Shown here in pieces: positions 21,879-42,236 of a stretch of 55,189 nt of DNA (position 1 is the first letter of the stretch; every line of letters starts with the position of its first letter). Position numbers and translations under genes: made by a program. Where the stretch lies: assembly GCA_946408025.1 (NCBI GenBank), contig CAMJQJ010000005.1, positions 1-55,189 on the forward strand, given 5' to 3'. This stretch comes from an uncultured Faecalitalea sp. (lineage in GTDB: Bacteria; Bacillota_I; Bacilli_A; Erysipelotrichales; Erysipelotrichaceae). The notes beneath the pieces are model-generated. The model was not told the origin of the DNA and searched no databases. It saw only the letters and a list, made by a program, of their open reading frames with translations.

Positions 21879-23432
21879 ATGGATTTACTTACAGTCTCTT
21901 TGTCTGGGGTCGCAGGACTTGTTATTGGGATACTTGCTATGGTGGCATATTCTAAAGCAGGATTAAATAAAGATCAGCAAAAAGCAGAACAGTTATTAAA
22001 GAAAGCCGAGACTGAAGCAGAGGCAAAGGTCAAACAAGCGGTTTTAGATGGAAAAACACAGGCGCATGATCTACGCGTCGAAGCTGAAAAAGAAATCAAA
22101 GAGAGAAAACAGGAAGCAATGGATTTAGAAAATAAATTGTTGCGCCGTGAAGACAACTTGAATTTTCGTGATGAAGCTTTGACACAAAAAGAACGCCAGG
22201 TGTCAGAAAAAATGCAGAAAGCTGCTGATAAACTGTCATCTTTAGAGGCAAAAGAGAAAAAATTACAAGAAGAGATCGATAAACAGATCGAAGTGCTGGA
22301 AAATGTCGCAAAAATGTCCAGCCAGGATGCTAAGGCAGAATTATTCTCAGTCGTTGAGAAGAAAATGGAACATGAAACCATTGCCTATATCAAAGATAAA
22401 GAAGAAGAAGCTAAGGCAACAGCGCAGCAAAAAGCGCAAAATATCATTGCATTGGCAATTGAAAGAATGTCTCAGACAGAAACACAGGAACGTACAGTGA
22501 GTGTTGTGAGTCTGCCTGGAGAAGAAATGAAGGGTCGTATTATTGGCCGTGAAGGTCGTAATATTCGTTGTTTTGAACAGGCAACAGGTGTTGAATTAAA
22601 TATTGATGATACACCAGATCTAATTACGATTACATGTTTTAATCCGGTTCGTCGTGAAATTGCCCGTTTAGCATTGGAACATTTGATTCGTGATGGACGT
22701 ATTCAACCAGGACGTATTGAAGAAGTTGTTAAAAAATACCAGCAGGAAGTTGACCAAGAAATCATCAAAGCTGGTGAAGATGCTGTATTTAAACTTGGTA
22801 TCGGTAAGATCGATAGAGAAATCGTAAAATTGATTGGTACATTAAAATATCGATATTCTTACGGACAGAATGCTTTGCAGCATTCAATGGAAGTAGCATA
22901 TTTGGCTGGTGCTATGGCCGCTGAGTTAGGGTTGAACCAGCAAATGGCAAAACGTGCCGGTTTGTTGCATGATATCGGTAAAGCGTTAAACATTGAACAG
23001 CAGGATGGTTCTCATGTTGAACTTGGTTACAAGTTCTGTAAGAAACATGGTGAAAAAGAAATCGTATTGAATGCGATTCAATCACACCATGGAGAAGTTG
23101 AACCTCGTTTCTTGACAAGTCATTTAGTTATTGCAGCGGATACAATCAGTGCAGCTCGTCCAGGTGCTCGTAAAGAAAGTGCACAGGCCTACATTGATCG
23201 TCTTGAAAATCTTGAAAAGATTGCGACAAGCTATGAAGGTGTTAATAGTGCATATGCTATTCAGGCCGGTCGTGAGATTCGTGTCATGGTAAATCCAGAG
23301 CAGGTAGATGATCTATCTTGTGTAAAGATTGCTAGAGAAATTCGTGATCAGATTGAGGAAGAATTGACATATCCTGGTCAGATCAAAGTCAATGTTATTC
23401 GTGAGATTCGTGCTCAGGAATTGGCTAAATAG
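21879..23432 (+). CDS. rny: Ribonuclease Y
   Basis: A 517-residue membrane-anchored endoribonuclease that initiates mRNA decay. The layout matches the family: a membrane helix at 5-25, a long charged coiled coil (about 30-200), the KH domain (EEMKGRIIGREGRNIRCFEQ), and the HD domain (HSMEVAYLAGAM, then GLLHDIGKAL) that holds the metal-dependent catalytic centre. Length and motifs are normal. A strong binding site AAGGAGGGAAG precedes the ATG. With the RNase J-like gene at 25.3 kb it gives this window two RNA-turnover enzymes. Confidence 0.97.
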   Translation: MDLLTVSLSGVAGLVIGILAMVAYSKAGLNKDQQKAEQLLKKAETEAEAKVKQAVLDGKTQAHDLRVEAEKEIKERKQEAMDLENKLLRREDNLNFRDEALTQKERQVSEKMQKAADKLSSLEAKEKKLQEEIDKQIEVLENVAKMSSQDAKAELFSVVEKKMEHETIAYIKDKEEEAKATAQQKAQNIIALAIERMSQTETQERTVSVVSLPGEEMKGRIIGREGRNIRCFEQATGVELNIDDTPDLITITCFNPVRREIARLALEHLIRDGRIQPGRIEEVVKKYQQEVDQEIIKAGEDAVFKLGIGKIDREIVKLIGTLKYRYSYGQNALQHSMEVAYLAGAMAAELGLNQQMAKRAGLLHDIGKALNIEQQDGSHVELGYKFCKKHGEKEIVLNAIQSHHGEVEPRFLTSHLVIAADTISAARPGARKESAQAYIDRLENLEKIATSYEGVNSAYAIQAGREIRVMVNPEQVDDLSCVKIAREIRDQIEEELTYPGQIKVNVIREIRAQELAK

Positions 23433-31486: not shown

Positions 31487-33415
31487 ATGCCAAAACAACA
31501 GTATAACGAAGAAAGTATCGTGATTTTAGAAGGACTGGATGCGGTAAGAAAGCGTCCGGGTATGTATATAGGTTCTACAGATTCAAAAGGATTACATCAT
31601 TTGGTCTGGGAAATTGTCGACAATGCGATTGACGAAGCATTGAATGGATATGGTAACCAGGTTCATATTACATTGAATAAGAATGGTAGTGTAACGGTTG
31701 AAGACCATGGTCGTGGAATGCCAGTAGGAAAACATAAATCCGGAATGAGCACATTGGCGGTTATTTTTACAGTGCTTCATGCCGGTGGAAAATTTACAAG
31801 CCAGGGAGGATATCGTAACGCTGGTGGTTTACATGGAGTCGGTGCGAGTGTTGTCAATGCGTTATGTACATGGTGTAAAGTAACTGTCCATGATGGAAAA
31901 GATGTTTGGTCCATGACTTTTGAGGATGGTGGACGAAAGATTGGTAAGTTGATTCGCGAAGGAAAAACAAATCGTACAGGAAGTACGGTCACATTTTTGC
32001 CAGATTCGAAGATTTTCAAAAATTGTACATTCTCTTTTTCTAAGATTTGTGAAAGAGCACAGGAAGATGCCTTTTTATTAAAAGGTTTAAAGATGATCGT
32101 TACCGATCTTCGTAAAGAAAAACGTGAAAATGTATATCAATATGAAGACGGATTAAAAGCTTTTATTGAAGAGATCAACTCAGATCATACGCCAATGCAT
32201 GATCCAGTCAGCTTTAGTGGAGAATATAACTCAATCAAAGTAGAGGGTTGTTTTCAATATACCGATGAATATCAGGAGAATGTTTTCTCTTTTACAAATA
32301 TGGTTCGTACACGAGATGGAGGAAGTCATGAAACTGGAGCTAAGCTTGCGTTCACAAAGGTATTTAATGAGTATGCGAGAAAAAATGGTTTCTTAAAAGA
32401 AAAAGACAAAGGATTTGAGGGAAATGATGTCAGAGAAGGTTTGACTTTGGTCATCAACTTAACAATTCCTGAAGAATATTTGCAGTTTGAAGGACAGACA
32501 AAAGAAAAATTAGGTTCTCCAGAAGCCAAACCTGCTACTGAATCAGTTGTCAGTGAACATTTACGTTATTTTTTAGAAGAAAATAAAGAAACAGCCAATG
32601 CACTGGTACGAAAAATCGTAAAGGCTGCCAGTGCTAGAAATGCTGCAAGAAAGGCTAGAGAAGAGGCTCGTAAAGGAAAAGGGAAGCAAAAAACAGAAAG
32701 AGTTCTTTCTGGAAAGTTAGCTAGCGCTCAAAGCAAAGATGCACGAAGAAAAGAATTGTATCTTGTCGAAGGGGATTCAGCTGGTGGTAGTGCAAAACAA
32801 GGAAGAGATTCCAAGTATCAAGCTATATTGCCTTTAAGAGGAAAGGTATTAAATACAGAAAAAGCTTCAATTGAATCGATTGAAAAAAATGAAGAGCTTA
32901 ACACCATTATCCATGCTTTGGGAGCTGGTGTTGGAGCTAGTTTTCAGGCAGAGGATTCTAATTACTATAAAGTTATCATCATGACCGATGCTGATGATGA
33001 TGGGGCTCATATTCAAAATCTATTATTAACATTCTTTTATCGCTATATGCGTGATTTAATTGAACATGAGATGTTATATATTGCCTTGCCACCTTTGTAT
33101 CGTATTGCCAAGGGAAAAGAAGAATATTATTTATATACTGATGAAGAATTGGATGAAAAGAAGCAAGAATTAAAGAATGGATATACGATTACTCGTTATA
33201 AAGGGCTTGGTGAGATGAATGCTTCTCAGTTATGGGAAACGACTATGAATCCGGAAACTAGAACTTTATTATGTGTAACAATTGAAAATGCTCGTATGGC
33301 AGAAAGACGAGTTACTGAATTGATGGGGGATAGAGCAGATCTTAGACGTAGTTGGATCGAAGATAATGTTGTATTCACACTAGAAGATGATTATGTTAAG
33401 GAGGTGCGTTCGTGA
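31487..33415 (+). CDS. parE: DNA topoisomerase IV subunit B
   Basis: A 642-residue GHKL ATPase subunit of topoisomerase IV, which decatenates daughter chromosomes. Motifs are [30 protein letters not shown] (ATP/Mg site), [14 protein letters not shown], and the TOPRIM domain with [16 protein letters not shown] and DADDDGAH. The sequence [11 protein letters not shown] is the ParE form rather than the GyrB form. It overlaps parC by 4 nt (GTGA), so the subunits are translationally coupled. Confidence 0.95.
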
Positions 33416-35901
33416 AAAAGAAACCAGAAGTCAAGCAGACGATCTTAAAAAATTCTTTGGAAGATATCATGGCAGATCGTTTCGCCCGTTATTCTAAATA
33501 TATTATTCAAGAGCGTGCTTTGCCGGATGCAAGAGATGGATTAAAACCCGTACAGCGCCGTATCCTATATGCGATGTATGAAAGTGGAAATACATACAAT
33601 AAACCATATCATAAAAGTGCTAAAACAGTTGGTAATGTAATTGGTAATTATCATCCACATGGAGATAGTTCTGTTTATGATGCGATGGTACGTATGTCAC
33701 AGCCTTGGAAAATTGCCAATCCTTTGATTGATATGCAGGGAAATAATGGTTCGATTGATGATGATCCGGCTGCGGCAATGCGATATACTGAAGCTAGATT
33801 ATCAAAAATTAGTAACTATCTGTTACAAGATATAGAAAAAGATACAGTTGAATGGGCTCCAAACTTTTCGGATGAAAAGATGGAACCAACGGTTTTACCA
33901 GCGCGATATCCAAACTTATTGGTAAATGGAATTACAGGAATTGCAGCAGGGTATGCAACCAATATTCCTCCACATAATTTAAATGAAGTTATTAAGGCGA
34001 CGATTTATCGAATCAAACATCCGGGTTGTTCTTTAGATGAGCTAATGAATTTTGTTAAAGGTCCAGATTTTCCAACAGGTGGAATTGTTATGGGAATTGA
34101 TGGTATTCGTCAGGCATTTGAAACAGGTCGTGGAAAGGTCATGATTCGTTCAAAAGTTGACATTGAAGAGACAAGAACAATCAAACAGATTGTTATTAAA
34201 GAAATTCCATATGAAGTTATAAAATCTCAATTGGTCAAAAAGATTGATGATATTCGTTTAAATAAGAAAATAGATGGAATTTTAGATGTACGTGATGAAA
34301 GTGACAGAACGGGTCTTCGTATTGTTGTCGATATTAAAAAGGATAGTGCACATGAACAAATTTTAAATTATCTGTATAAGAATACAGATCTGCAGATTTC
34401 GTATAATTATAACGTCATTGCGATTGTGAACAAAGCACCTGTTCAGATGTCTTTAGCTATGGCTCTTGATGCCTTCATTGCCCATAGAGAAGATGTCGTA
34501 TTAAGAAGGAGTCGTTATGATTTAAACGCAAAACAAAAACGTGCTCACATCTTGGAAGGTTTGATCAAAGCTGTTTCTGTTATGGATGAAATTATTACGA
34601 TAATTCGAAAGTCAAAAGATAAACAAGATGCTAAAGTTAATCTGATTGAACGTTTTCAATTTACCCAAGAACAAGCTGAAGCTATTGTTGTCATGCGTTT
34701 ATATCGCTTGACCAATACTGATGTAAAAGAACTTAAAAGTGAATATAAGCTCTTAAAAGATGAAATTAAGCAATTAGAAGCAATCGTATCGAATAAAGAT
34801 GTTTTAGATGCCTTGTTGATCAAAGAATTAGAAGAGGTAAATCAGGTGTTTGTAACACCTAGATTATCTATGGTCGTTGATCAAGTTGAAGAAATCGTAA
34901 TTGATGAAAAAGCGATGATTGCCAATGAACAAGTTGTTGTTCCGATTACACGTGATGGATATATAAAGCGAGTTTCTATGCGTTCTTACAATGCTTCCAA
35001 TGATGTTTTAAGCATGCATAAAGATAGCGACAAATTAGTATCTTATGGCACAGCTAGTACTTTGGATACTTTATTGTTCTTTACAAATCGAGGTACATAT
35101 GGATATTTGTCAGTATATCAGATAGAAGAAGCAAAATGGAAAGATTTAGGAAGTCATTTAAGCAGTTATATCAGAATGGATGCAGGCGAAAAGATCATTC
35201 AGGCATATCTTGTCTCATCTTTTGATGAAACGGTTGAAGTTTTATGTGCTTCTCGCTTTGGAATGATCAAAAGAACTAATTTAAAGGAATTACAGGTATC
35301 AAGGCCAAATAAAACGATGGTTTGTATGAAAATAGGTTCATTGGATGAAATGGTAAGTGTAGCTCTATCTTATAATCCTAATGATATGGTTATTTTATCT
35401 AGTGAGCAAGGATTTGCACTTACTTATCCAGTTGACCAAGTTCCTCAAGTAGCTTGCCGTTCAAAAGGTGTTAAAGCTATTAATCTATCTAAAGATGATC
35501 ATGTAGCAGATATGATAGTGGTATCCAATCTAGAAGGACAATTAGTTGTTATTAGTGATACAGCTTCGATGAAACGCATCAAAGCAAGTGATATAGCACA
35601 AGTTAAACGACCAGCCAAGGGAAATAGAATTTGCAAATTTGTGAAATCGAATCCAGTTAAGATAAATAATTTATTGTCAAAACAGCTCAATGATGTTATT
35701 GAATTCCAACATAATGAACTTGTTCGTTTTGCAGCTAAAGAAGTGTCTTTGATGTCATGTGATTCTACATTCTCTTCACCTTTTGGAAAGGTTGAGGAAT
35801 TTGAAATACCAACATCTTTGGAAATGATTCATTCTGGGAATTGGAGCAATGTAGAAAAAGAAGAAATTGAGCAGGTTAGTCTTTTTGAGGTGGATGCATG
35901 A
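33412..35901 (+). CDS. parC: DNA topoisomerase IV subunit A
   Basis: 829-residue DNA-cleaving subunit. The catalytic Tyr is in [11 protein letters not shown]. The quinolone-resistance region reads [18 protein letters not shown], with Ser and Asp at the two commonly mutated positions, i.e. the susceptible form. A C-terminal beta-pinwheel of repeated blades (about 500-800) supplies DNA wrapping. The start is GTG, overlapping the parE stop, with AAGGAGGTG upstream. The stop overlaps the next gene's ATG. Confidence 0.95.
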
Positions 35902-37973: not shown

Positions 37974-37985
37974 AAATAAGCAATT

Positions 37986-38072
37986 GCCCGGGTGGTGAAA
38001 TTGGTAGACGCAGTGGACTCAAAATCCACCGGTAGCGATACCGTGCCGGTTCGAGTCCGGCCTCGGGCACCA
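37986..38072 (+). tRNA. tRNA-Leu, anticodon CAA
   Basis: An 87-nt class II tRNA that folds completely: acceptor stem GCCCGGG with CTCGGGC, anticodon stem GTGGA/TCCAC around loop CTCAAAA (anticodon CAA, reading UUG), a long variable arm CGGTAGCGATACCG, T stem GCCGG/CCGGC with TTCGAGT, discriminator A, and an encoded CCA (38070-38072). It is a single tRNA gene, followed after 55 nt by an intrinsic terminator. Confidence 0.97.
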
Positions 38073-38378
38073 TTGCTTGAAAAAATAGAAAATATTTTGA
38101 TTTTCTTAAAATATAGATTAAATTTAGTGAATCCACAAGGATTCATTTTTTTTTGTTTATTATCATCGATACTTAAATTTCATTTTATAAGTTGTGATTT
38201 TAGAAGTAACCATCGTTTATTGAATTGCATAAAATTTTCTTGTAAAATTAAATTAGAAAAATAATAAAAAAACAAGTATGCTTAATTTAGCTGAAGTGAA
38301 TGTTATCGCAAGTGAGTGGATTTATCTAACACTTGGTTTAAAAGATAATTTAGTAATTTAAGCCATAACTTATTATAT
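38073..38378. other. 306-base stretch between tRNA-Leu and the accessory pair
   Basis: Contains the tRNA terminator (38128-38153) and otherwise very AT-rich sequence. A short frame at 38278-38361 (MLNLAEVNVIASEW...) stops before the next gene and is not in its frame. It could be a remnant of the missing N-terminus of that gene, but I cannot show this. No copy of the tRNA 3' end was seen downstream, so there is no sign of an attachment site. Confidence 0.5.
38128..38153 (+). terminator. Terminator of tRNA-Leu
   Basis: TGAATCC (38128-38134) pairs with GGATTCA (38139-38145), loop ACAA. Eight or more T follow. Confidence 0.9.
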
Positions 38379-38744
38379 ATGGCAAAAGCTCCTATAAGTT
38401 TTGAAGATATCAAACGTTTTTTAAATGAAATGCCATATCTTACAGCAAAACTTCATGGAAAGAAATATCGATTCATGTATCAGGTCTATTCTAGTCCTAA
38501 ATATCGAGAACAAGGAAAAGAATTCTTTAAAGGCGTCAATGTACGTTATAAAGAATATGCCAATGAACTATCAAACAAATTAGGAATGCCAGCTGATTAT
38601 ATTCAAGGCATGACCTATATCTTTGTTAGAGCATGTGTACATTATACTTTATTCGAAGATGAAGAATATTTAAATCTTCAGCTAAATGCGATACGTACAT
38701 CTTTAAAAGCATACATAAAAGAAAAGAAGGAGGAAAGAAAATGA
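38379..38744 (+). CDS. Unknown 121-residue helical protein, possibly the C-terminal half of a TetR-type regulator
   Basis: A basic, mostly helical, soluble protein without signal peptide. Segments such as KYREQGKEFFKGVNVRYKEYANELSNKLGMPADYIQGMTYIFVRACVHYTL look like the ligand-binding half of a TetR-type regulator, but no helix-turn-helix is present, and the region upstream has stops in this frame. The ATG has no ribosome binding site. Both facts fit a 5'-truncated gene; a real small protein is the alternative. Its 3' end carries the strong AAGGAGG of the surface-protein gene and overlaps it by 4 nt (ATGA). The family suggestion is a guess. Confidence 0.6.
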   Translation: MAKAPISFEDIKRFLNEMPYLTAKLHGKKYRFMYQVYSSPKYREQGKEFFKGVNVRYKEYANELSNKLGMPADYIQGMTYIFVRACVHYTLFEDEEYLNLQLNAIRTSLKAYIKEKKEERK

Positions 38745-41029
38745 AGAAACGAATATGGAGCAAAGCAGTATCCATCTTTACAGCAATCCTATTAGTAGTA
38801 GGACTTGTACCAAGTACGACAGTTGCTGTGATGGCGGCGGAGACGAATATCGTTTATGTGGGAGGCGTGGCGCTTTCCGGAAGTTCTGACAATATCGCTT
38901 ACGCCACAACAAACAAAAGCGGCGAACTGATAACGGAAGGTGCAACTGCTGACAACTACAACATCAAGTGGGACGGCAGCACGCTGACCTTGCACGACGC
39001 TACCATTCAAAAAGAATTGTATGCTAGCGACCTCCCCCTTAGTAATATTGCCGGAGCGGCCATTGGCGTGATCAATCAAAGCGGGGATGCAGGATTGACC
39101 GTCCAGCTAGAGGGCAACAATAAGATTGAAGGAGTCAGCACAGGGATTCATGTTCGTTCCTCAGGGGGCAATGCCGCCTTGAACATCACGGGCAACGGCA
39201 CCTTGGTTGTCAACTCAAATTATCTAACAATCCAGGTTACCAGCATAGGCGGTAATGCTGCCCTGAGCATCGAGAATACAAAGGTCACAGCCACAAGTTC
39301 CTATAGCAATGTCGTTACCGTGCAGAGCGGTAATAGCGAAAACTCAAGCGCATCAGTCACCGTGGATGGCGGCAGTCTAACTGCTACAGCACCGTCGAAT
39401 AATGTTTCAGGAATTCGCTTCGTATTTGGCTCCGGTGGATCCGGCTCCGGCACACCCAACCTGATCGTCAGCGGCAACGCCACCGTGCGAGCCAACGGCA
39501 GTGCCGGTGGAATTACGAATAATTCTTCTACTGGGGTTCAGTACGGAACAGGTAGCAGCACAACCGGCGGCATCGTCTGGAATGGCAAAGACGGCACCGT
39601 GTACGGCAAGGTGGAATTGCAGGAGGATTTGGAGATTGGAGAGGGTGAGAGCCTGACTATCGAAGATGGAGCCAGCTTGAATACAGGCAGCCATGAAGCG
39701 ATTGTAAATGGCGGAACTCTCAATGGGGAGGATAAGATAACAGGTACAGTAAAATATGCTCCATCTATCACAACAGAATTTTTACCTGAAGGAAAAGTAA
39801 ATGAAGAATACGCTACTTCTCTTTCAGCAAATGGTTCTGAACCAATTACATGGAATGTTTCTGATGGAAATTTACCTACAGGATTGAGTTTATCAACAAA
39901 CGGTAAAATTACTGGAATACCTACTGTTAGGGGTAATTATGTCTTTACTGTAACTGCAAGCAATGGTGTAGAAAGTGATAGTAAATCTTTTTCAATCTCT
40001 GTTGTAGATCCAATTTATAGTATCCAGAATAGTGGTGATATAAGCTTTGCGGATGCATTAGAAGGCTATACACCAGAAGTTAAGACTATTATGATCACAA
40101 ATGATGGAAACCAACCAATTACTTTGGATCAACCATCAAGTACATCATTTGATGTTGGAACTCTATCTAAGACAGAATTGAATGTTGGAGAAACTGCAGA
40201 ATTTACAGTACAGCCTAAGAATGGTCTTTTAGCAGGTAGCTACGAAGAAGATATTGTAATCACTGGTACAAATAATGGAAAATCTGTTTCTACAACAGTA
40301 AATGTGAAGTTCAATGTAAAACATAATGCTGTTAAAGTGGAAAGAAAAGATCCAACATGTACTGAAGCTGGTAATATTGAATACTGGTATTGTGAAACAT
40401 GTGGAAAGTATTTCCAGGACGAAACATTAACAAAGGAATTGAAACAAGAAGAAACGATTGTTCCAGCAACAGGGCATAACCTAACAAAAGTTGACGAGAA
40501 AAAGCCAACAGTAGATGCAGCTGGAAATGTAGAATACTGGTATTGTGAAGTATGCAATAAATATTTCAGTGATGAAAAAGCGAAACATGAAATTACTTTA
40601 GAAGATACGATCATTGCGAAACTTCCGAAATTTGTTAGTGGTGCAAACCAAGAATGGACAAAAGGAAGCAAAGATGGATTGACTTTTAAAATTGATACAG
40701 ATATCAAAGAGTTTAAGAAAGTTCTTGTAGATGGAAAAGAATTAAAGGATACAGATTATGATATCAAATCTGGAAGTACGATCCTTACTTTAAAACCTTC
40801 TTTCCTAGATACTTTATCAGCAGGAAAACATAAAATTCGTTTTGAGTTTAATACCGGTAGTGTTGAAGCGTACTTTACGGTAAAAGATAAGGAAAACTCC
40901 AGTCAGACGGAATCCGCGAATACAGGGGTACAGAATAAATATGGATTATGGATCGTCTTATTACTGGTTGCTGCTGGAGGTTTAGCAGGATTTGGTATTT
41001 TATCTAAAAGAAGAAAAAATCATAAATAA
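38741..41029 (+). CDS. Large cell-surface protein with Ig-like and C-x2-C repeat domains; mosaic gene
   Basis: 762 residues. Signal peptide (about 1-33, ending VAVMAAE). Residues about 34-335 are low-complexity, repeat-like beta sequence (GNAALNITGNGTLVV; GNAALSIENTKV) suggesting a beta-helix adhesin-type fold. About 342-427 resembles a putative-Ig (He_PIG) domain (GLSLSTNGKITGIPTVRGNYVFTV). About 430-530 is a beta-sandwich. Two 45-residue repeats each contain YWYCE-x-C-x-KYF (about 533-625). An 85-residue X2-like domain and a wall anchor follow: SANTGVQ, a hydrophobic helix and KRRKNHK, which resembles a divergent sortase signal. DNA coding for about 34-330 is much richer in GC than the rest. 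Function is unknown; adhesion or glycan binding is inference. Confidence 0.85.
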   Translation: MKKRIWSKAVSIFTAILLVVGLVPSTTVAVMAAETNIVYVGGVALSGSSDNIAYATTNKSGELITEGATADNYNIKWDGSTLTLHDATIQKELYASDLPLSNIAGAAIGVINQSGDAGLTVQLEGNNKIEGVSTGIHVRSSGGNAALNITGNGTLVVNSNYLTIQVTSIGGNAALSIENTKVTATSSYSNVVTVQSGNSENSSASVTVDGGSLTATAPSNNVSGIRFVFGSGGSGSGTPNLIVSGNATVRANGSAGGITNNSSTGVQYGTGSSTTGGIVWNGKDGTVYGKVELQEDLEIGEGESLTIEDGASLNTGSHEAIVNGGTLNGEDKITGTVKYAPSITTEFLPEGKVNEEYATSLSANGSEPITWNVSDGNLPTGLSLSTNGKITGIPTVRGNYVFTVTASNGVESDSKSFSISVVDPIYSIQNSGDISFADALEGYTPEVKTIMITNDGNQPITLDQPSSTSFDVGTLSKTELNVGETAEFTVQPKNGLLAGSYEEDIVITGTNNGKSVSTTVNVKFNVKHNAVKVERKDPTCTEAGNIEYWYCETCGKYFQDETLTKELKQEETIVPATGHNLTKVDEKKPTVDAAGNVEYWYCEVCNKYFSDEKAKHEITLEDTIIAKLPKFVSGANQEWTKGSKDGLTFKIDTDIKEFKKVLVDGKELKDTDYDIKSGSTILTLKPSFLDTLSAGKHKIRFEFNTGSVEAYFTVKDKENSSQTESANTGVQNKYGLWIVLLLVAAGGLAGFGILSKRRKNHK

Positions 41030-41034
41030 TGTTT

Positions 41035-41059
41035 AAAAGGTGGGTTATACCACCTTTTT
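41035..41059 (+). terminator. Terminator of the surface-protein gene
   Basis: AAAAGGTGG (41035-41043) pairs with CCACCTTTT (41050-41058) across six bases. A T run follows. Confidence 0.9.
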
Positions 41060-41152
41060 ATATAGAACTTTTTAGCGAATATATAATTTTAGGGAAAATG
41101 AAAGATTAATGTTTATGTTAATGGGTTAGATTAAATGGAAAAATATATGTTT

Positions 41153-41183
41153 TTGACAATTTAAATGTAAAGTTTGTTATAAT
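41153..41183 (+). promoter_or_regulatory. Strong promoter of the 344-residue unknown gene
   Basis: Consensus TTGACA (41153-41158), 19-nt spacer, TATAAT (41178-41183) with an extended TGT in front. Confidence 0.8.
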
Positions 41184-41201
41184 ACTTCGAGGAGATACAA
41201 T

Positions 41202-42236
41202 ATGAACATATTATATAAATCATTTCATTTAGTAGATGTAGATAATGAGCGTACAGTAAGAAATGATATCTCAGAAGATTTTGATAGTTTTATTAATGAT
41301 TTTGTTGATTTTTCAAATCATAATGAAAAAGCCAAAGCATATGTAATCATGCATGAAGAGGATTTGATTTCAGACTGTATTCAAAGAATTGTAAACGATA
41401 CGGATGTAGAGTATCGTAATGAACTTTCAGATAAAATAGCTTTAAAGTTATTGGAGTCAGAAAAGTTAGCGCAGGCAAAAATTTATCCAACGGGATCAAA
41501 GGTTAAAAGAGGAAGTCTTGTACAAGCTCTTGTACAAAATTCTGATGATGAATATGAATATATCTTGGCTAAAGTAGAACATAGTGAATGGTATGATGGA
41601 ACAAGTCTGCATCGAAATAGTGGTTTTTCTTCGGAAAAAAAGAGTATCTGGAAATTTGCTATTTATCATATGTATTCAATCAATAATCATGTTGTTTTTA
41701 ATGATGTTTCTGTTTATACAGATACAAAGGCAAAATATTGGACCGTATCTTTTTTAGAACTGGAAGAAAAAAGAGATGATGCATTTAACACATATAATGC
41801 GTATAAAGCGATTGACAATGAATTGAAAAGTGCTGTAAAAGCAAGTTCTCCTAGAGATTATGTGGTGTTGTCTAATGAAGTTCAAAATGCAATGAATACG
41901 CCTCAAAATTTGAATTATTCAGATTATGTAGAAACTTTAATTGATAATTATGAACCAGTCTCAAATGAAATAGAGAAAGACGTAATCAAGGATTGTTTGT
42001 TGGCATTACCGGAAAGAAAACATTTTGACACTGAATTTAAAACAGTACCTTCTTCTATAGAAAATAAGAGAACCAAGAAATATAAAATTGCAGATGGTGT
42101 TGAACTCATGATAAAAAGTACCTCAAGTGATTTTTCTAAGCGGATCACATCCACTTTGAAGAATGGAAGAAGAGTCTTAGAAATTGTATGTGATGAGGAT
42201 GAAACGTACAATGCCTTTATTGAAGAAAATGCTTAA
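41202..42236 (+). CDS. Unknown 344-residue cytosolic protein, possibly nucleoid-associated (NdpA-like)
   Basis: Soluble, acidic, without membrane segments. The layout recalls the 37-kDa nucleoid-associated (NdpA/YejK) family: an N-terminal helical part (1-90), a central beta-rich part with KRGSLVQALVQ...YILAKVEHSEWYDGTSLHRNSG (about 100-145), a helical part, and a C-terminal beta segment (KIADGVELMIKS...GRRVLEIVCDEDE). I cannot confirm the family from motifs. It has GAGGAGAT, a consensus promoter and its own terminator, so it is a well-expressed single gene. It lies next to the accessory surface locus, so an acquired function is possible. Confidence 0.7.
   Translation: MNILYKSFHLVDVDNERTVRNDISEDFDSFINDFVDFSNHNEKAKAYVIMHEEDLISDCIQRIVNDTDVEYRNELSDKIALKLLESEKLAQAKIYPTGSKVKRGSLVQALVQNSDDEYEYILAKVEHSEWYDGTSLHRNSGFSSEKKSIWKFAIYHMYSINNHVVFNDVSVYTDTKAKYWTVSFLELEEKRDDAFNTYNAYKAIDNELKSAVKASSPRDYVVLSNEVQNAMNTPQNLNYSDYVETLIDNYEPVSNEIEKDVIKDCLLALPERKHFDTEFKTVPSSIENKRTKKYKIADGVELMIKSTSSDFSKRITSTLKNGRRVLEIVCDEDETYNAFIEENA

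Follow-up and report, generated by a model that had tools for sequence, protein, structure and literature searches.

The window, i.e. the whole stretch of DNA that was analysed (55,189 nt from an uncultured Faecalitalea sp.), contains a surface-protein gene in which a signal peptide is followed by a block of high GC content, a series of stalk domains, and a cell-wall anchor (Table 1). Immediately upstream, and overlapping this gene by the sequence ATGA, lies the C-terminal half of a TetR-family regulator gene, which is preceded by a degenerate remnant of its N-terminal part and by a tRNA gene.

Table 1. Features of the surface-protein locus
Feature	Position	Strand
Stretch of high identity to the sister species (96-99% in the block flanks, 78-92% around it; edges approximate)	37976..41599	.
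tRNA-Leu(CAA), left edge of the near-identical stretch	37986..38072	+
Degenerate remnant of the TetR N-terminal DNA-binding part (other frame, with a stop)	38272..38373	+
C-terminal (ligand-binding) half of TetR-family regulator	38379..38744	+
Surface-protein gene (762 aa), comprising signal peptide, block, stalk (Ig-like and further domains), and LPxTG-like anchor	38741..41029	+
Signal-peptide region, native AT-rich composition	38741..38833	+
High-GC block of 300 aa, predicted to form a beta-solenoid tip domain, without Pfam or NCBIfam family	38834..39733	+
He_PIG Ig-like domain, native composition, divergent from sister species (dN 0.19, dS 0.22)	39734..40015	+
Stalk: DUF1573-like stretch and two CxxC modules	40016..40650	+
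CBM_X2-like domain, slightly below the Pfam cut-off	40667..40861	+
LPxTG-like (SANTG) cell-wall anchor, transmembrane segment, basic tail	40919..41026	+

Maximum-likelihood segmentation of the gene identified positions 38801-39730 as its best GC segment (log-likelihood gain, 38.8), with a GC content of 52.5% vs 34.0% in the remainder of the gene. The other 930-nt stretches of the window have a mean GC content of 34.4% (SD, 2.8) and a maximum of 40.6%. GC3 is 0.40-0.62 in the block vs approximately 0.07-0.28 across most of the tail, and at the right edge it falls from approximately 0.6 to 0.05-0.2 over approximately 20-40 codons. When the flanks were included, the GC change points fell 34 nt before the start of the block domain and 2 nt past its end, and the reading frame is uninterrupted across both joins. 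The first-pass annotation of this DNA had described a high-GC block at 38830-39740, a preceding signal peptide, and a shift in codon choice, all of which proved correct.

No family was assigned to the block by sequence searches of Pfam, NCBIfam, and the PDB, and PF14262 (Cthe_2159) gave no match at E ≤ 1 among 13 blocks. An AlphaFold2 model built from 13 aligned blocks predicts a beta-solenoid (mean pLDDT, 91.8). Foldseek without realignment returned no significant match for this model (best E, 0.31). After structural realignment of the Foldseek candidates, the best matches were Cthe_2159 (4phb; Z 14.8 over 186 residues), which is thus the closest solved fold despite the absence of a Pfam sequence match, and the binding region of the Lactobacillus reuteri SRRP (5nxk; Z 14.0, rmsd 3.2, 188 residues, 15% identity); the next-best structure had a Z score of 10.9. 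Behind the block, the He_PIG match (E 1e-10) and the two CxxC modules meet the stalk criterion of a fibrillar adhesin, and the DUF1573-like stretch was inferred from its resemblance to the DUF1573-matching part of a related protein (L006). The anchor gave only a weak Gram_pos_anchor match (E 0.15, below the cut-off), the signal peptide was assigned by reading the sequence, and no serine-rich repeats were seen on reading the protein. Because the predicted fold resembles those of SRRP and Cthe_2159 and because fibrillar adhesins with a stalk-borne solenoid tip have been described (PMC9210967), the block is probably an adhesin tip carried on lineage-specific stalks and anchors. This assignment is inferred from fold and layout without binding data, and the receptor-like role proposed earlier is supported by fold only.

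The genus is represented by two genomes only, that of the window and that of a sister species (G001), in which the same locus is spread across two contigs, each ending within the block, so that this block could be read only in part, as two pieces. Identity between the two genomes is approximately 78-90% across the 4 kb upstream of tRNA-Leu and 96-99% in the segment that starts at the tRNA, spans the TetR remnant, and ends at 38811. The first 71 nt of the signal-peptide start are approximately 97% identical, and the alignment breaks at 38811/38812, inside the signal-peptide coding sequence. It resumes at approximately 39700; identity is approximately 80% across the Ig-like domain, climbs to 91-99.6% over 40001-41500 (approximately 99% over 40501-41500), and drops back near 41600. 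The flanking parts of this island have dS values of 0.11 and 0.06, the 41202 gene, which straddles its right edge, has a value of 0.29, and two genes to the left and two genes after 42272 have values of 1.0-1.6, core genes between the two species ranging from 0.24 to 1.6. Judging from the flank dS of 0.06-0.11 vs 1.0-1.6 in most neighbouring genes, the island flanks have recently been exchanged between the two species. The sister block also has a high GC content but belongs to another clade, and its pieces contain exact matches to an actinobacterial block (L072; 73 nt) and to one from the window's own family (L024; 44 nt). Replacement at this locus is therefore repeated. No direct repeats of the tRNA-Leu end that would point to an att site for an integrase were found at this locus, the right island edge lacks a tRNA-derived repeat, and a search for a vacant site in other genera of the family via the 41202 gene revealed no shared neighbourhood. 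Elsewhere in the window (31487-35901), identity to the sister species changes from 98% in the first topoisomerase-like gene (dS 0.27) to approximately 80% in the following genes (dS 0.7-1.6), indicating several divergence regimes in this genome region.

In a tree of 35 blocks, the window tip forms a five-member clade (support, 100/99) with three Clostridia blocks and one Atopobiaceae block (L004, L005, L006, and L007), its nearest relative being an Oscillospiraceae block (95/85). For the window block and these four, dS is 0.34-0.42, which lies inside the span observed for core genes when the sister species are compared. The four class or phylum labels require 13 changes on the tree, the minimum being 3. 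The nearest relatives of the block thus lie outside the family, whereas the best non-sister matches of the tail lie within it, although the tail search covered the window's own family only. Most relatives are metagenome-assembled genomes (MAGs); the named strains are Blautia sp. An249 and Enorma burkinafasonensis, whose isolate origin was judged from their names. In the Atopobiaceae MAG (L007, 4001-4902), the tip gene is frameshifted near its start and is possibly broken or affected by a sequencing error; its block has a GC content of 55% amid surroundings of 68%.

These comparisons support the mosaic reading of the gene in the first-pass annotation, which had also suggested separate searches of block and flanks and a search for other cassettes in relatives: the former led to Clostridia and Atopobiaceae vs the window's own family, and the latter to a different block on nearly identical flanks in the sister species. 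Finding this change of composition in a close relative as well had been named as a refuting case; the sister meets it in form but not in substance, since its block is a different one. Secretion and anchoring parts had been regarded as native; a refinement is that the Ig-like domain behind the block is variable as well.

Exact DNA matches of at least 40 nt were found in 42 of the 595 block pairs, the longest being 195 nt, whereas a synonymous-recoding control using each block's own codons gave no pair of at least 40 nt (maximum, 23 nt). The 195-nt match joins members of different phyla (L110, Parabacteroides' family, and L083, Merdivicinus's order), and further cross-phylum matches of 94 nt (L056 and L072) and 73 nt (L016 and L026) were detected. 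A third-position triplet test identified 19 of 29 blocks as recombinant after Bonferroni correction; the best triplet of the window block itself (p 1.4e-5) did not survive this correction. No excess of dN over dS was found in the block: dN/dS is approximately 0.6, elevated yet below 1, and diversifying selection remains unproved.

In Bacillota, Actinomycetota, and Bacteroidota, 1-12% of the genomes sampled from each group carry related blocks, nearly always as a single copy. Profile-matching blocks were found in 13/196 genomes of the window's family, 6/392 of the sample of its phylum, 8/67 of Enorma's family, 2/299 of Mediterraneibacter's family (the Lachnospiraceae sample), 6/295 of Merdivicinus's order, and 5/125 of Parabacteroides' family. 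The window block itself meets the definition of the pool (GC3 0.567; profile score, 409). Searches of the tip against known phages, plasmids, and IMG/VR contigs yielded nothing.

The composition of these blocks is independent of their hosts. At 30 loci, block GC3 is 0.590 (SD, 0.038), whereas the tails of the same genes have a GC3 of 0.609 with a far wider spread (SD, 0.193; range, 0.20-0.90), and the slope of block on tail GC3 is 0.015 ± 0.037. Consequently, GC content rises at the block in AT-rich hosts and dips there in GC-rich ones. Distant homologues (L030, L074, L075, L082, and L084) were left out of this fit; with all loci included, the slope is 0.21 (p 0.02), as some distant homologues follow their hosts while the core pool does not. 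Host-like composition is seen in L030/L031 (GC3 0.12) and L075 (0.84). At 4-fold sites, the slope for the core pool is 0.087 ± 0.035, a slight pull toward the host. A single GC-rich donor, as first proposed for the window, is not demonstrated; the source is rather read as a circulating pool of constant composition, which forms a trough in GC-rich hosts, and replacement as such is supported.

Intact TetR genes are located upstream of tip-bearing surface genes in Blautia sp. An249 and in three other genomes (G041, G084, and G045). The TetR half in the window is 79-83% identical to intact regulators adjoining such genes at two loci (L009 and L086). The TetR_N domain is present at L009, L086, L088, and L089, and only a broken remnant is left in the window. 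In both species of the genus, the DNA-binding half is destroyed and the C-terminal half is open; the latter may still be under selection. Other upstream regulators include HTH_17 plus GerE (L013 and L090) and LuxR-type proteins (L091 and L092). In G045 (L089/L106, contig C13), the TetR-surface pair resides between genes for a phage-type integrase, which is split into two overlapping frames, and FtsK-like and Rep_OBD genes. The element is AT-rich with high GC in the tip alone, and this gene row is likely an integrative element carrying the TetR-surface unit and a plausible vehicle. Anchors behind related tips differ, with choline-binding repeats in L004, the LPxTG-like anchor in the window, and DUF6383-like ends (below the Pfam cut-off) at two Parabacteroides loci. 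Such lineage-specific anchors argue for splicing within genes.

We consider it probable that the protein is a cell-wall-anchored fibrillar-type adhesin with an exchangeable beta-solenoid tip drawn from a cross-phylum allele pool, its ligand, the direction of transfer, and the splicing step being inferred. One competing possibility is that whole genes move and that the stalk and signal peptide later gain host composition while the tip does not, without any splicing below gene level. The stalk modules of L026 and L028, which are also foreign in composition, and the TetR partner, for which Blautia shows 75% identity to a genome from the window's family, would fit such transfer. It nevertheless seems rather improbable, as composition shifts abruptly at the domain boundaries in the window, the leader and stalk of the sister are 97-99% identical to those of the window although its tip is not shared, and anchors vary by lineage behind related tips. 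An assembly or binning artefact, in which a foreign high-GC fragment was joined into the window MAG, might be suspected because the two genome assemblies of the genus consist of fragments and the sister contigs end inside the block. The open frame at both joins and the same layout in the separately assembled sister make such a chimera highly unlikely, and this layout recurs in named strains (L009 and L013) and at more than 30 loci. Equally hard to maintain is an old native gene part in which selection on the protein or DNA sequence maintains the high GC, without import. The very constant composition and the high-GC block at the same place in the sister could be cited for it, but the host-like distant homologues (L030/L031 and L075) indicate that high GC is not forced by the fold, vertical descent cannot explain the synonymous similarity and exact tracts seen across phyla, and the blocks of the two species belong to different clades. 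This interpretation is already contradicted and could be revived only if the cross-phylum tracts were contamination.

How the constant composition arose is less certain. Either circulation is faster than adaptation to the host, or tips return repeatedly from a reservoir of intermediate GC content, and the data do not decide between the two. Tentatively, and without much confidence, we suggest that the circulating unit is a DNA fragment smaller than a gene that passes among three gut phyla too fast for any copy to gain host composition, the GC3 of 0.59 being close to the mean of the carrier genes (0.61) rather than to that of any single host. Somewhat less likely, though not dismissed, is one long-term reservoir in mid-GC Oscillospirales or Lachnospiraceae with occasional one-way spill-over and no true circulation among three phyla. 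The GC4 of the tip (0.63) is close to that of several mid-GC Clostridia genes, and the closest relatives of the window tip are mostly Clostridia. However, the tip is no commoner in sampled mid-GC Clostridia (6/295 in the order and 2/299 in Lachnospiraceae vs 13/196 and 8/67 in the recipient families), its GC in most such Clostridia is below that of the gene behind it, and some tracts are common to Bacilli and Actinomycetota directly.

Under the exchangeable-tip explanation, tip alleles would move among gut Bacillota, Actinomycetota, and Bacteroidota and recombine within the pool, each host joining the tip behind its own signal peptide and ahead of its own stalk and anchor. Within the genus, tips may be swapped by homologous recombination via shared flanks, with the tRNA-Leu/TetR remnant/signal-peptide region on one side and the 3′ tail on the other. 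A tip from another lineage could come as part of a regulator plus surface-gene unit, in some cases at least carried by an integrative element like that in G045, or else in DNA taken up by the cell. The recombination step and the direction of transfer are inferences, as are the ligand and the selective cause: the tip would bind a polysaccharide or mucin glycan, and its exchange might be selected by altered binding specificity or by altered recognition by phage or mucosal antibody.

Surface-antigen mosaicism is usually viewed as a process within a species or genus, and mosaic pools of the PspA/PspC type are not known to extend further. Unlike in these pools, tracts of the window type are common to different phyla, although the variable recombining N-terminal part on a conserved anchor is the same in pneumococcal PspC (PMC7814132) and PspA. 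The tip-stalk-anchor layout inferred for the window protein is that of the fibrillar adhesins. A survey of these in Gram-positive bacteria detected clusters of N-terminal beta-solenoids with a relation to Cthe_2159/SRRP and proposed that adhesive domains may be moved onto a given stalk (PMC9210967). In comparison with that survey, transfer is seen here at the DNA level, with breakpoints, three phyla, and host-independent composition, for a tip family without a Pfam or NCBIfam model; relative to Cthe_2159, the cross-phylum cassette behaviour is new. The L. reuteri SRRP likewise carries a beta-solenoid tip on a wall-anchored gut adhesin, and for SRRP53608 the binding partners are mucin and epithelial cells when the pH is neutral and pectic polymers when it is acid (PMC6973325); unlike SRRP, the window protein lacks serine-rich repeats and its ligand is unknown. 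The open-access literature searched contained no description of cross-phylum sub-gene exchange, which does not prove its absence. If three gut phyla share one tip pool, binding specificity, phage sensitivity, or antibody targets could pass between unrelated community members without whole-gene transfer. In the sister species, an almost identical stalk already bears a different tip. Constant composition is a simple, testable sign of fast circulation and may be used to find other shared modules. As a separate compositional observation, the strong AT skew (0.41) at 22001-22500 of the window is due to the lysine/glutamate-rich N-terminal region of RNase Y (21879-23432).
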